Shown here: piece by piece, positions 28,754 to 61,552 of the stretch
How the letters are laid out: each line of letters begins with the position of its first letter
Position numbering within the stretch: the first letter of the stretch is position 1
Assembly (NCBI RefSeq): GCF_013426895.1
Contig: NZ_AP023176.1
Span: forward strand, 1,922,001-1,986,000
Source of the DNA: Paraburkholderia largidicola
GTDB lineage: Bacteria; Pseudomonadota; Gammaproteobacteria; Burkholderiales; Burkholderiaceae
Length of the DNA: 64,000 nucleotides
Direction of reading: 5' to 3'
Notes under the pieces: model-generated
Told to the model about the DNA's origin: nothing
The model's database searches: none
Seen by the model: the letters and a program-made list of their open reading frames with translations, nothing else
Program-made: the position numbers and the translations under genes

Positions 28754-31351
28754 ATGAATACTGCACACCGCAAACCGCTGCCCGGCACCTCGCTGGATTA
28801 CTTCGACACGCGCGCCGCGATCGACGCGATCCAGCCGGGCGCTTATGACAAGCTGCCGTACACGTCGCGCGTGCACGCCGAAAACCTGGTGCGCCGCTGC
28901 GATCCCGCGACGCTCACAGATTCGCTGCGGCAGCTCATCGAACGCAAGCGCGAACTGGATTTCCCGTGGTTTCCGGCGCGTGTCGTGTGTCACGACATTC
29001 TCGGCCAGACGGCACTCGTCGATCTCGCAGGTCTGCGCGACGCGATCGCCGATCAGGGGGGCGACCCGGCCAAGGTGAACCCCGTCGTGCCCGTTCAGTT
29101 GATCGTCGATCACTCGCTCGCGGTCGAATGCGGCGGCTTTGACCCGGATGCGTTTGCGAAGAACCGCGCAATCGAAGACCGGCGCAACGAAGACCGCTTC
29201 GACTTCATCAACTGGACCAAGAAGGCATTCAAGAACGTCGACGTGATTCCGCCGGGCAACGGCATCATGCACCAGATCAATCTGGAGCGGATGTCGCCCG
29301 TCATTCACGCTGCCGATGGCGTCGCGTATCCCGACACACTCGTCGGCACGGACAGTCATACGCCGCACGTCGATGCGCTTGGTGTGATCGCCGTGGGCGT
29401 CGGTGGCCTGGAGGCGGAGAACGTGATGCTGGGCCGCGCTTCGTGGATGCGCTTGCCGGATATCGTCGGCGTCGAATTGTCGGGCAAACGTCAGCCGGGC
29501 ATTACCGCAACCGACATCGTGCTCGCGCTGACGGAATTCCTGCGTAAAGAGAAAGTGGTCGGCGCGTATCTGGAGTTCCGCGGCGAAGGCGCGTCGAGCC
29601 TCACGCTCGGCGACCGCGCGACGATCTCCAACATGGCGCCCGAATACGGCGCGACAGCCGCGATGTTCTTCATCGACGAGCAGACCATCGAGTATCTGCG
29701 CCTCACGGGCCGCGACGACGCGCAAGTGAAGCTCGTCGAGACGTATGCAAAAGAAGCTGGCCTGTGGGCCGATTCGCTCAAGCACGCCGAATATGAGCGC
29801 GTGCTCAGCTTCGATCTGTCGACGGTCGTGCGCAATATGGCGGGTCCGTCGAATCCGCACAAGCGCCTGCCGACCTCCGATCTCGCGGAACGCGGCATTG
29901 CGGGCAAATGGGAAGAAGTGCCGGGGCAAATGCCCGACGGCGCGGTCATCATCGCGGCCATCACGAGTTGCACGAACACCAGCAACCCGCGCAACGTGAT
30001 CGCAGCGGCTTTGCTCGCGCGCAATGCGAACGCGCGCGGCTTGACGCGCAAGCCGTGGGTGAAGTCGTCGCTTGCACCGGGATCGAAGGCCGTCGAACTG
30101 TATTTGCAGGAAGCGAACCTGCTGCCCGATCTGGAGAAGCTCGGCTTCGGCATCGTCGCGTTTGCGTGCACGACGTGCAACGGCATGTCGGGCGCGCTCG
30201 ATCCGACGATCCAGCAGGAGATCATCGATCGCGATCTGTATGCGACGGCCGTGCTGTCGGGCAACCGCAATTTCGACGGCCGCATTCATCCGTATGCGAA
30301 GCAGGCGTTTCTCGCGTCGCCGCCGCTCGTCGTCGCGTATGCGATTGCGGGGACGATCCGCTTCGATATCGAGCGCGATGTACTCGGTAAGGACAAGGAC
30401 GGCAAGCCGGTGTATCTGAAGGACATCTGGCCGAGCGACGAAGAAATCGACGAAATCGTCAGGCAGAGCGTGAAGCCCGAGCAGTTCCGCAAGGTCTACG
30501 AGCCGATGTTCGCCGTGACGGCGGCGAGCGGCGAGCCGATCAGCCCGCTGTACGACTGGCGCGCGCAAAGCACCTATATTCGCCGTCCGCCGTACTGGGA
30601 AGGTGCGCTGGCCGGCGCGCGTACGTTGCAAGGTATGCGTCCCCTCGCCGTGCTCGGCGACAACATCACGACGGATCACCTGTCGCCGTCGAACGCGATT
30701 CTCGCGAACAGCGCGGCGGGCGAATACCTCACGAAAATGGGTCTGCCCGAAGAGGACTTCAATTCGTACGCGACGCATCGCGGCGATCACCTGACCGCGC
30801 AGCGCGCGACGTTCGCCAATCCGACGTTGATCAACGAAATGGCCGTGGTCGACGGTCAGCAGAAGAAGGGATCGCTGGCGCGCATCGAGCCGGAAGGCAA
30901 GGTCACGCGTATGTGGGAAGCCATCGAAACGTACATGGACCGCAAGCAGCCGCTCATCATCATTGCGGGCGCGGACTACGGCCAGGGTTCGTCACGCGAC
31001 TGGGCGGCTAAGGGTGTGCGGCTCGCGGGTGTCGAATCGATCGTGGCCGAAGGCTTCGAGCGCATTCACCGCACGAACCTGATCGGTATGGGCGTGCTGC
31101 CGCTCGAGTTCAAACCGGGCGTGAACCGGCTGGCACTGGGTATCGACGGGACCGAGACGTATGACGTGATCGGCGAGCGCAAGCCGCGCGCGGACCTGAC
31201 GCTCGTGATTCATCGCAAGAACGGCGAACGCGTCGAAGTGGCCGTCACGTGCCGACTCGATACGGCGGAAGAAGTGTCGATTTACGAAGCGGGCGGCGTG
31301 CTGCAGCGCTTTGCGCAAGACTTCCTGGAGTCGTCGAAGGCAGCGGCCTGA
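28754..31351 (+). CDS. acnD: Fe/S-dependent 2-methylcitrate dehydratase AcnD
   Basis: Predicted 865-residue aconitase-family enzyme that dehydrates 2-methylcitrate to 2-methyl-trans-aconitate, replacing PrpD in this pathway variant. The three [4Fe-4S] ligands are visible: Cys406 (SCTNTSNP), Cys472 and Cys475 (CTTCNG). Swivel domain with GDNITTDHLSP and YGQGSSRDWAAKG. ATG 28754 gives the family N-terminus (MNTAHRKPLPGTSLDYFD) and the usual length; ATG 28685 follows AAGGAG with very short spacing and would add 23 unusual residues. Because a terminator lies 160-230 bp upstream, acnD-prpF may have its own promoter or depend on read-through. Confidence 0.95.
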   Translation: MNTAHRKPLPGTSLDYFDTRAAIDAIQPGAYDKLPYTSRVHAENLVRRCDPATLTDSLRQLIERKRELDFPWFPARVVCHDILGQTALVDLAGLRDAIADQGGDPAKVNPVVPVQLIVDHSLAVECGGFDPDAFAKNRAIEDRRNEDRFDFINWTKKAFKNVDVIPPGNGIMHQINLERMSPVIHAADGVAYPDTLVGTDSHTPHVDALGVIAVGVGGLEAENVMLGRASWMRLPDIVGVELSGKRQPGITATDIVLALTEFLRKEKVVGAYLEFRGEGASSLTLGDRATISNMAPEYGATAAMFFIDEQTIEYLRLTGRDDAQVKLVETYAKEAGLWADSLKHAEYERVLSFDLSTVVRNMAGPSNPHKRLPTSDLAERGIAGKWEEVPGQMPDGAVIIAAITSCTNTSNPRNVIAAALLARNANARGLTRKPWVKSSLAPGSKAVELYLQEANLLPDLEKLGFGIVAFACTTCNGMSGALDPTIQQEIIDRDLYATAVLSGNRNFDGRIHPYAKQAFLASPPLVVAYAIAGTIRFDIERDVLGKDKDGKPVYLKDIWPSDEEIDEIVRQSVKPEQFRKVYEPMFAVTAASGEPISPLYDWRAQSTYIRRPPYWEGALAGARTLQGMRPLAVLGDNITTDHLSPSNAILANSAAGEYLTKMGLPEEDFNSYATHRGDHLTAQRATFANPTLINEMAVVDGQQKKGSLARIEPEGKVTRMWEAIETYMDRKQPLIIIAGADYGQGSSRDWAAKGVRLAGVESIVAEGFERIHRTNLIGMGVLPLEFKPGVNRLALGIDGTETYDVIGERKPRADLTLVIHRKNGERVEVAVTCRLDTAEEVSIYEAGGVLQRFAQDFLESSKAAA

Positions 31352-38351: not shown

Positions 38352-38364
38352 TACAATGTCTCCT

Positions 38365-38513
38365 GTCGACCAGAGTTGGAGCTTTAGCTCCTACTCTGTT
38401 CCCATGCAAAGCTGTCGACCAGAGTTGGAGCTTTAGCTCCTTACTCTGGTCCCATGCAAAGCTGTCGACCAGAGTTGGAGCTTTAGCTCTTTACTCGGGT
38501 CCCATGCGTAGCT
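38365..38513 (-). ncRNA. Three tandem copies of a hairpin leader element before an MFS gene
   Basis: Three direct repeats of about 50 bp (38365-38413, 38414-38463, 38464-38513). On the transcript each unit forms an outer 9-bp stem GACCAGAGT/ACTCTGGTC, an inner stem GGAGC/GCTCC and the tetraloop TAAA. The copy nearest the gene is followed at once by AGGAGACA, the Shine-Dalgarno of the MFS gene (ATG 38351). Units 1 and 3 carry one or two stem mismatches, unit 2 is perfect. A diverged copy with a compensatory change is at 60601-60652 in front of an ABC permease gene. There are no spacers, so this is not CRISPR. Confidence 0.7.
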
Positions 38514-38547: not shown

Positions 38548-40137
38548 TCAACCCGGCGTCCGCTCGTACCGTCCCGCAACACGCCGATGCACGCCAAGCG
38601 GATTCGCATCGCGCAACGCTTCGGGCAACAACGCGGCAGGCAGGTTCTGATAGCAGACAGGCCGCATGTAACGTTCGATCGCCGCCGTGCCGACAGACGT
38701 GCTGCGTCCATCCGATGTCGCGGGGAATGGCCCGCCATGCACCATCGCGTCGCAGACTTCGACGCCCGTCGGAAAACCGTTCGCGAGAATACGGCCGGCC
38801 TTGCGTTCGAGAATCGGCAGCAGTGCTTGCACGGCGGGTTGATCGGCGTCATCGAGATGCAGCGTGATCGTCAACTGGCCTTCGATACGGTTCAACACCG
38901 TGCGCAACTCATCAGCGTCTGCGCATTCGACCAGCACGCTGCACGGGCCGAATACTTCGTCGGCAAGCGTGTGATCCGAAAGCAGACTCTTTGCATTCAC
39001 GCGAAACAATGCCGCTTGCGCGCGCCGGCTGCCCGCTTCGGGCGCCTTGCCGCGCGCGAGCGTCGTCACCGCGGGATTCGCCGCGAACCGTTCGACGCCT
39101 GCGTCGTAAGCGCGCAGAATGCCGCCCGTCAGCATCACGCCCGCTTGCACGCCGTCGATGCTCTGCGCGGCGGTCGCAGCAAAACGCTCGAAGCCTTCGC
39201 CCGCGATACCGAGCATCAAGCCCGGATTCGTACAGAACTGCCCGCAACCCAGCGTCACCGATGCAACGAAATCGCGCGCCAGCGTTTCGGCGCGCGCGGC
39301 CAGCGCAGCGGGCATCAGCAGATTCGGATTCACGCTGCTCATTTCCGCGTAGACGGGAATCGGCTCCGCGCGCGCGTTCGCAATCGCCATCAGCGCGCGT
39401 CCGCCTGCACGCGAACCGGTGAAGCCGACAGCCTTGATCGACGGATGCGCGACGAGCGCTGCGCCCACTTCATGGCCCGCGTCGAACAGCATCGAGAACA
39501 CGCCTTCGGGCAACTCCGCGTGACGTACGGCGTCCTGAATCGCACGGCCCACGAGTTCCGACGTGCCTGGATGTGCCGGATGCGCCTTCACGACAACCGG
39601 ACAACCGGCCGCAAGCGCCGCCGCTGTATCGCCACCCGCGACCGAAAACGCGAGCGGAAAATTGCTCGCGCCAAACACAGCGACGGGACCCACGCCGATG
39701 CGCTGAAAACGCAGATCGGTGCGCGGCGGCTGGCGTTCAGGCAGCGCCGGTTCGATACGTGCATCGAGTGCATCGCCGCTGCGCACGAGCGTTGCGAACA
39801 TGCGCAACTGGTTCGCCGTGCGCGCGCGCTCACCTTCGAGACGCGCTTTCGGCAAGCCCGATTCGCTCATCGCGCGTTCGATCAGCGCGTCGCCGAGTGC
39901 TTCGATACGTGCAGCGATATCGTCGAGAAAGCGTGCGCGACGCTCCGCGGGTAGCGTGCGGTAGGCGTCGAATGCGTTCTCGGCCAGTGTGCAGGCTTCG
40001 TCGACGTCGCCTGATTGCGCGCTGTAGTACGTCGGCACTTGCAGCGATTGTTCCGTTGCAGCGTCAATGGCATGAAACTCAGCGCCTTGTCCACGCCGCG
40101 CGCTCGCGCCAATCAGCAGTTCACCTGTCAGGTTCAT
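38548..40137 (-). CDS. Alpha-ketoglutaric semialdehyde (2,5-dioxovalerate) dehydrogenase
   Basis: Predicted 529-residue NAD(P)+-dependent aldehyde dehydrogenase of the KGSADH type, oxidising alpha-ketoglutaric semialdehyde to alpha-ketoglutarate. The catalytic Glu is in [11 protein letters not shown], the catalytic Cys in [12 protein letters not shown], the cofactor segment in [20 protein letters not shown], and the C-terminus has [23 protein letters not shown], typical of this subfamily. The start is ATG 40137 with GAGGAG upstream; the frame extends only to a TTG at 40152. It begins 11 bp after the arabonate dehydratase stop, so the two are co-transcribed. Confidence 0.9.
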
Positions 40138-60600: not shown

Positions 60601-60652
60601 TTTGCATGAGGTCAGAGTAAGGCTCCAAAGAACCAACTCTGGCCAACAGGAG
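60601..60652 (+). ncRNA. Diverged copy of the hairpin leader, before an ABC permease gene
   Basis: Matches the transcript of the 38365-38513 units from TTTGCATG through AACTCTGG to ACAGGAGACA and then the ATG. The outer stem is GGTCAGAGT (60611-60619) / ACTCTGGCC (60636-60644), against GACCAGAGT/ACTCTGGTC in the other locus. The second pair changed A-T to G-C on both sides and the third became T-G, so pairing is kept. The inner stem is weaker with one mismatch and the loop is CAAA instead of TAAA. It ends at the Shine-Dalgarno (AGGAGA) of the gene at 60659. Confidence 0.65.
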
Positions 60653-60658
60653 ACAACG

Positions 60659-61552
60659 ATGGCTACCAAGACATGGGACTCACCACAGATGGTGGTGGGC
60701 AAGCATAACTACGTCTCGCGGATCGTCATTTATTCGATGCTGGCGATTGCAGCCGTGGTCTATCTCGTACCGCTGCTCGTGATGCTGCTGACATCGTTCA
60801 AGCCGTTGCCCGAAGTTTATTCCGGCAATATCCTCGCGCTGCCTCATCAGTGGACGCTCGAAGCGTGGGAAAAAGCCTGGGGATCGGCGTGCGTGGGGCT
60901 CGAATGCTCCGGCGTAAAAGGCTTCTTCTGGAATTCCTTCCGGATGGTCTTCTCTGCCGTAGCGATCTCCACCCTGCTCGGCGCATTGAACGGCTACGTG
61001 CTGACCAAATGGCGCTTCAAAGGCGACAACATGCTGTTCGGCCTGATCCTGTTCGGATGCTTCATCCCGTTCCAGATCGTGCTGATTCCGATGGCGTCGT
61101 TCCTCGGCAAGGTCGGTCTCGCGCAATCGATCAGCGGCCTCGTGTTCGTACATGTCGTATATGGCCTGTGCTTCACGACGCTTTACTTCCGCAACTACTA
61201 CATCGCATTTCCCGATGAACTCGTGAAAGCGGCAATGATCGATGGCGCGCGTTTCTTTCGCATCTTCTTTCGCATCCTGCTTCCTAACTCGGTGCCCATC
61301 ATCACCGTCACTGTGATCTGGCAATTCACGAATATCTGGAACGACTTTCTGTTCGGCGCTTCGTTCACGACGGGCAGTTCCGCGCCCATCACGGTCGCGC
61401 TGAACAACATCGTCAATACATCGACGGGCGTCAAGGAATACAACGTCAACATGGCCACGGCCATGATCGCCGCGCTGCCGACACTGCTCGTCTATGTGAT
61501 CGGTGGGCGCTACTTCGTACGCGGTCTGATGGCCGGCTCGGTCAAGGGGTAA
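60659..61552 (+). CDS. ABC sugar importer permease (MalG/UgpE type)
   Basis: Predicted 297-residue inner-membrane permease. First helix after VGKHNYVSRIVIYSMLAIAAVVYLVPLLVMLLTSFKP; the EAA motif is DELVKAAMIDGARFFRIFFRILLPNSVP. ATG 60659 follows AGGAGACA; the open frame from 60602 covers the hairpin leader and is rejected. Second permease of the heterodimer. The leader between the two permease genes could tune the ratio of their products. Confidence 0.9.
   Translation: MATKTWDSPQMVVGKHNYVSRIVIYSMLAIAAVVYLVPLLVMLLTSFKPLPEVYSGNILALPHQWTLEAWEKAWGSACVGLECSGVKGFFWNSFRMVFSAVAISTLLGALNGYVLTKWRFKGDNMLFGLILFGCFIPFQIVLIPMASFLGKVGLAQSISGLVFVHVVYGLCFTTLYFRNYYIAFPDELVKAAMIDGARFFRIFFRILLPNSVPIITVTVIWQFTNIWNDFLFGASFTTGSSAPITVALNNIVNTSTGVKEYNVNMATAMIAALPTLLVYVIGGRYFVRGLMAGSVKG

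Follow-up and report, generated by a model that had tools for sequence, protein, structure and literature searches.

REP sequences and REPINs, with their RAYTs, are short, extragenic, imperfect palindromes that occur in many copies, some of them in tandem (PMC3116915). Tandem hairpins also characterize leader RNAs such as pan and mini-ykkC, of which pan precedes pantothenate genes; the same survey lists, for Burkholderiales, a candidate RNA called Burkholderiales-1, with a question mark for both RNA and cis-regulation and no Rfam accession (PMC2864571). A compilation of "orphan CRISPR" repeats includes number 20, of P. hospita, and number 23, of P. oxyphila, with cas genes entered as "not identified" (PMC5968390, Table 4).

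The window analysed here (the whole stretch of DNA, 64,000 nucleotides from Paraburkholderia largidicola) contains, at two sites, a hairpin element for which a functional RNA in the leaders of two transporter genes had been proposed. That original prediction stands in part: the association with starts and the covariation that it called for are largely found, but the discriminating tests favour a mobile palindrome. Start-codon association and covariation fit an RNA as well as a mobile palindrome with a target motif, so neither separates the two; what favours the palindrome is presence and absence at orthologous sites, insertion into a riboswitch and into rRNA spacers, preference for GGAGAC, and lack of a G-U excess. 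We put at roughly three in four the probability that the element is a mobile palindrome of the REP-like kind that prefers AGGAGAC-type targets, multiplies in tandem and has no known transposase.

The larger of the two sites is an array (38363-38507; period 50, 2.9 copies, 95% matches by Tandem Repeats Finder) flanked by genes for an aldehyde dehydrogenase (38548-40137) and an MFS transporter (PF07690; 37002-38351, - strand); the gene order in the annotated relative P. largidicola is IlvD/Edd, ALDH, MFS, dihydrodipicolinate-synthase family, MFS. All three units of ~50 bp lie on the - strand, like the coding sequence of the MFS gene, and share, with small differences, the layout GCATGG - GACCAGAGT - AA - GGAGC - TAAA - GCTCC - A - ACTCTGGTC - GAC. 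Hairpin unit 1, 5'-most in the transcript, occupies 38467-38501 (-), with GCATGG before it at 38502-38507; the consensus-like unit 2, GACCAGAGTAAGGAGCTAAAGCTCCAACTCTGGTC, occupies 38417-38451 (-) and scores 67.1 bits with a covariance model that includes it; unit 3 (38368-38401, -) adjoins the AGGAGAC motif at 38358-38364 (-), which serves the MFS gene as Shine-Dalgarno and would also, in our preferred interpretation, be the target of insertion. The sequence after the last unit reads GAC-AGGAGACATTGTA-ATG. Three tandem 50-nt hairpins, the last of them next to the MFS Shine-Dalgarno, are where they had been noticed.

The 196-nt MFS leader has a predicted folding energy of -78.4 kcal/mol, compared with -51.6 (sd 4.5) for its shuffles (z -6.0). 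Folded singly, units 2 and 3 are clearly beyond chance (z -3.5 and -3.9, respectively) and unit 1 is not (z -1.35). Unit 1 has one mismatch in its outer stem (C/T, GACCCGAGT) and one in its inner stem (A/C); unit 3 also has stem mismatches. The 64-kb window yields no match to Rfam at gathering scores; ten sub-threshold matches surfaced at a permissive threshold, nine of them to miRNA families, and were discarded. An unrelated 16-bp tandem repeat (2.6 copies) lies at 29157-29196 of the window. Most units contain a five-codon frame, ATG-GGN-NNN-NNN-stop (TAA, TAG or TGA), which in unit 1 is at 38491-38505; of the frame ATG GGA CCA GAG TAA, the own-genome copies keep the ATG in 24 of 32 cases and the stop in 27 of 32, those of P. 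xenovorans in 25 of 30 and 27 of 30. A mini-ORF was considered and rejected: no conserved Shine-Dalgarno precedes the ATG, departures from ATG are mostly to non-start codons, the stop is replaced in some copies by codons such as TCA and CAA, and the 9-nt arm in any case sets the frame.

The second site is a diverged single unit on the + strand (60610-60644, with GCATGA before it at 60604-60609; 53.9 bits with the covariance model), followed by an AGGAGAC motif that is also a Shine-Dalgarno (60648-60654, +) and by an ABC permease gene (PF00528; 60659-61552, +). The unit (60604-60644) ends 14 nt ahead of the permease start at 60659, in agreement with the diverged copy that had been placed before this gene. 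The compensatory changes said to distinguish it from the array, outer A-T to G-C and inner G-C to T-A, are present, but changes that weaken pairing had been left out of the account: this copy also carries a T-G wobble and a C/A mismatch, and units 1 and 3 have the mismatches given above. Folded singly (60601-60652), it is not beyond chance (z -1.06). The single close relative found for this site, Paraburkholderia sp. PGU19, is filled as well, its ABC permease ortholog having one unit that is closer to consensus.

The covariance model was built from 12 own-genome copies and comprises the hairpin and 6 nt on its 5' side, with nothing on the 3' side. In the own genome it returns 68 rows at E <= 10, some of which are the reverse strand of the same palindrome; the best 37 of the 68 (E <= 0.012), which correspond to 28 sites, make up the set used here. 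At E <= 0.001, 34 of 59 sampled genomes match, with up to 95 matches per genome, and all of these belong to the window's genus (34 of the 35 sampled there); among the 24 genomes from other families there is no match. Family- and order-wide searches used stricter filters, at which weak matches are lost, and found the element in 125 of 299 genomes (8 of 25 genera) of the family sample and, at E <= 1e-4, in 2 of 200 genomes of the order sample, both of them in the window's family. A pattern scan of named contigs locates at least 120 stretches, in records of Paraburkholderia, Caballeronia, Burkholderia and Trinickia, and a sequence detector registers 136 hits in the first 80 named loci versus 6 in mononucleotide shuffles of them. 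The phage records searched for the element gave no match at E 1e-3.

Six of the 28 own-genome sites are 23S-5S spacers, two of them assigned by Rfam and the other four by near-identical flanks. Nineteen of the remaining 22 end 12-26 nt before a sense start codon located with a home-made gene caller that misses some starts, and site C3:1202091, judged by eye, does so too. P. xenovorans LB400 has 21 sites (from 33 of 55 rows, the rest being weaker, reverse-strand duplicates or array units already counted), of which 10 have a sense start no more than 30 nt away and another 4 have one at 31-60 nt. The best 150 of 279 matches in the 80 named loci form 85 chains: a sense start is at most 30 nt away in 50, 31-60 nt away in 7, 61-150 nt in 7 and further in 7, while 8 have a convergent downstream gene and 6 have no gene in the locus. 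Many covariance-model matches directly before start codons, in sense orientation, had been expected of the element, and both the own genome and the named loci provide them.

A special connection with transport, which had also been expected, is a loose one: of the 18 downstream genes scanned in the own genome, 8 are transport genes, a proportion that comes with no control set. The other downstream genes include those for a putative cyclase, an AMP-binding enzyme, an M20 peptidase, a polysaccharide-synthesis membrane protein, ATP synthase epsilon (atpC), a transketolase-like subunit, an FAD-binding enzyme, a LuxR-type regulator and a sigma-54 activator; a response regulator is among the non-transport genes. 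Multi-unit sites, 6 of the 28 in the own genome, are same-strand tandems. The longest array, 14 units in Caballeronia humi (L206:6248-6923, +), immediately precedes a gene start, and the N-terminus of that gene's product looks to us like a CoA-transferase. Half-units truncated at the 5' end, such as GACAGCTAAAGCGCTAACTCTGGTC, recur downstream of the last full unit, ahead of the Shine-Dalgarno (in L129, L156, L165, L167, L118 and others). Caballeronia grimmiae has another repeat (L126:433-1269 and L155:1131-1907), with inverted GGTTACTTTCTTTG/CAAAGAAAGTAACC ends; some of its copies have the hairpin unit in the loop, and not before GGAGAC.

The sequence that follows the hairpin tracks a motif and not Shine-Dalgarno strength. 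Among 109 distinct sites with a hairpin, GGAG and a start, some of which are orthologs of each other, 65 have GGAGAC, compared with 40 of 197 genes without the element (Fisher 9e-12). GGAGG is the stronger Shine-Dalgarno, with more extensive pairing to the 16S tail, but is disfavoured (9 of 109 sites versus 40 of 197 background genes; p 0.006). The usual distance from the hairpin to the beginning of GGAG is 4 nt (58 cases) or 6 nt (41); 5 nt is rare (5). The preference is nonetheless not strict, and a sizeable minority of copies are without the motif: GGAG is found within the first 14 nt of 106 of 179 terminal 3' flanks and is absent from 73, which include half-units, rRNA copies, decayed copies and motif-less sites; 7 of the 21 P. 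xenovorans sites have no GGAG in the printed flank.

Orthologous sites differ in whether they are occupied. Thirteen MFS orthologs could be compared, 4 filled and 9 unfilled. The own genome has three units, P. largidicola F2 and sp. 22B1P have two each, and G010, in which the upstream gene is different, has one diverged unit; G019 (with a 95% identical protein), G015, G012, G014, three P. caribensis records, sp. PGU19 and P. phymatum have none. All nine unfilled sites read GGAGACA just before the start. Both flanks align among P. largidicola, 22B1P, P. caribensis, PGU19 and G019, and the hairpins are the main difference. The atpD-atpC gap, scored by eye in 30 genomes, is filled in 10, cleanly empty in 10 (CTCAACC directly followed by AGGAG, for example) and remnant or unclear in 10. 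BLAST of filled-site flanks among the fetched loci adds further empty/filled pairs, together with chance detector hits. These comparisons suggest that the gains are insertions and that losses alone would not generate the pattern. Some sites have a possible AG...AG target-site duplication; the 5' end is variable and no constant duplication could be fixed. At some genes, several species retain the insertion; a useful leader would account for this as well, and it counts against the mobile reading.

The motif also serves outside ribosome sites. A cobalamin riboswitch aptamer of the own genome (L004:1464-1698, -; also L011) holds a hairpin unit just before CAGGAAACCTGCC: its match to RF00174 extends over 235 nt at 77.2 bits, with the unit as an insertion, whereas the ortholog of this riboswitch in P. 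gardini has no unit, reads CCAGGAGACCTGCC, and matches over 179 nt at 108.5 bits. The own-genome 23S-5S spacers carry the unit on the opposite strand from the rRNA, with GAGACACACC after it on that strand. Seven other 23S-5S spacers comprise two (PGU19 and B. stagnalis) with a unit beside rRNA-strand GTCTC, two (B. arboris and Caballeronia sp. SBC2) with a unit at the same place without GTCTC, and three (Caballeronia sp. M1242, B. multivorans and C. metallidurans) with no unit. The 16S-23S spacer of G022 carries both a full unit and a half-unit immediately ahead of AAGACACACC in the pre-23S leader; at the equivalent position P. xenovorans has GAGACACACC and no unit. Rfam identifies the loci L066 and L263 as 16S-23S spacers. 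Four weak unit-like matches (25.5 bits) in the rRNA operons of P. xenovorans (L260-L263, at 1501-1528) have no motif behind them; in L263, the locus in which gene positions were checked, the weak unit sits between tRNA-Ile and tRNA-Ala. As far as comparison of genomes carries, then, the element's orthologous presence and absence, the motif in the unfilled sites, its use outside translation and the differences in tandem number are established.

A cis-acting functional RNA (a translational switch, or a protein-binding or mRNA-stabilising hairpin) that selection keeps before start codons would explain sense orientation and a 12-26-nt spacing to the start, and the paired positions do covary, as had been anticipated for a larger alignment. 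Aligned, the best 150 matches give 92 distinct rows, in which 94.6% of cells pair; both partners vary in 11 of the 14 pairs, and double changes affect 102 cells, versus a shuffle mean of 25.9, although the rows were fitted to the model and come mostly from a pattern that fixes the outer stem, making this a biased sample; the 12 own-genome copies alone also show covariation. Unpaired positions are conserved as well (GCATGG, the AA/A internal loop and the TRAA loop), and predicted accessibility of the Shine-Dalgarno is slightly higher with the element (0.487) than with the flanks joined (0.435; p 0.03) or the element shuffled (0.434; p 0.05), at 70 of 120 sites, a change so small that sequestration or opening of the Shine-Dalgarno was rejected as a function. 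Selection on the sense RNA should, however, make G-U exceed A-C among the imperfect pairs, and no such excess is seen in 3367 pairs from 259 distinct contexts: the count is 40 G-T/T-G versus 52 A-C/C-A (p 0.25) with the first inner pair, an internal-loop position in the shorter version, omitted (raw counts, A-C 114 versus G-T 46). A small control, 12 tRNAs from the same DNA, gives 7 G-U-type pairs versus 1 A-C and differs from the element (Fisher p 0.02). A DNA hairpin, or mutation that corrects palindromes, would be expected to leave covariation of this kind, free of wobble bias. The same motif is used inside a riboswitch aptamer and rRNA spacers, the element is often absent in close relatives, the downstream genes are of mixed function and the window is without an Rfam match; selection for a leader RNA is, on balance, an unlikely origin of these hairpins.

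Dispersal by slippage, gene conversion and recombination only, with no transposition, is doubtful: tandem slippage is evident in the 2-unit and 3-unit alleles and in the 14-unit array, but single units are present or absent between similar flanks, and these flanks have only a short motif in common with the element's surroundings at other sites. Most improbable is a true REP/REPIN system moved by a RAYT (a Y1 transposase). The element is a short, extragenic, imperfect palindrome with a conserved flank and tens of copies; asymmetric insertion beside a short motif is the logic of IS200/IS605; and a Y1_Tnp match is present in all 22 same-genus genomes searched, exactly one in 18 of them and more in 4. 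Against it, the Y1_Tnp-like gene reads PGAVQ or PDAVQ at what we take to be the position of the HUH motif, in 19 loci whose frame was recognised by pattern; 1 of 31 Y1_Tnp loci (L349) gave a detector hit, which has a 3-bp inner stem and is not family-like; copy number is untied to the gene, single-Y1_Tnp genomes ranging from 1 (G013) to 63 (G017) unit matches; and the arrays are direct tandems with no inverted doublets. Y1_Tnp, the family tested as a transposase partner, had no convincing unit within the fetched loci. The Y1_Tnp-like gene is conserved in the genus (L244, L245, L337-L341, L343-L354; PGAVQ, in L245 PDAVQ) and is possibly, judging from these residues, a domesticated transposase.

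The mobile palindrome that we prefer would be an element of ~48 bp, composed of GCATGG, a 34-35-nt two-tier hairpin and GTCGAC, that moves within genomes of Burkholderia sensu lato and inserts by preference directly 5' of an AGGAGAC-type motif, or, on the other strand, 3' of GTCTCCT, a polarity like that of IS200/IS605-type insertion. It would be non-autonomous, moved by some enzyme that probably recognises the hairpin as (single-stranded) DNA; recognition in this form would account for the covariation. Because an intergenic AGGAGAC is often a Shine-Dalgarno, insertions would end up as sense-oriented leader hairpins, in the own genome 12-26 nt before starts. Tandem multiplication, to as many as 14 units, would follow insertion, and decay would follow in turn. 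That insertion affects translation of the downstream gene is possible. More tentative is the notion of a selfish hairpin that, by targeting a ribosome-binding motif, writes hairpins into leaders, with a copy number of 0-14 that might act as an evolvable knob for tuning translation or mRNA stability.

Start-codon association and covariation are the usual evidence for a leader RNA; here a mobile DNA hairpin that has a target motif explains them better, and motif surveys that rely on the two could be misled. If the insertions do alter expression, they would amount to a natural means of placing hairpins into leaders at ribosome sites again and again, for which the MFS locus offers ready-made 0-, 2- and 3-unit alleles.

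In the open-licence literature consulted, mostly titles and the starts of abstracts, no published description of the element was recognised beyond repeats labelled as CRISPR. Orphan CRISPR repeat 23, GTCGACCAGAGTTAGCGCTTCAGC, matches the element's complementary strand, and repeat 20 of P. hospita, as tabulated, resembles the element (PMC5968390). Unlike a CRISPR, the element forms tandem hairpin units with repeated linkers; unique spacers of the CRISPR type are absent, the linkers of the 14-unit array being near-identical. Burkholderiales-1 (Weinberg et al. 2010) may be the same as the element. With pan and mini-ykkC, as summarized there, the element shares small repeated hairpins in leaders; unlike pan, it stands before genes unrelated to one another, and its presence varies among relatives (PMC2864571). 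By the properties given for them in PMC3116915, REPINs are the nearest known kind: the element, too, is an extragenic palindrome with many copies per genome, in part in tandem arrays. It differs from them in that no linked RAYT was found and no inverted doublets occur in the own genome, and in that its insertion motif coincides with the Shine-Dalgarno, which places sense copies before starts.
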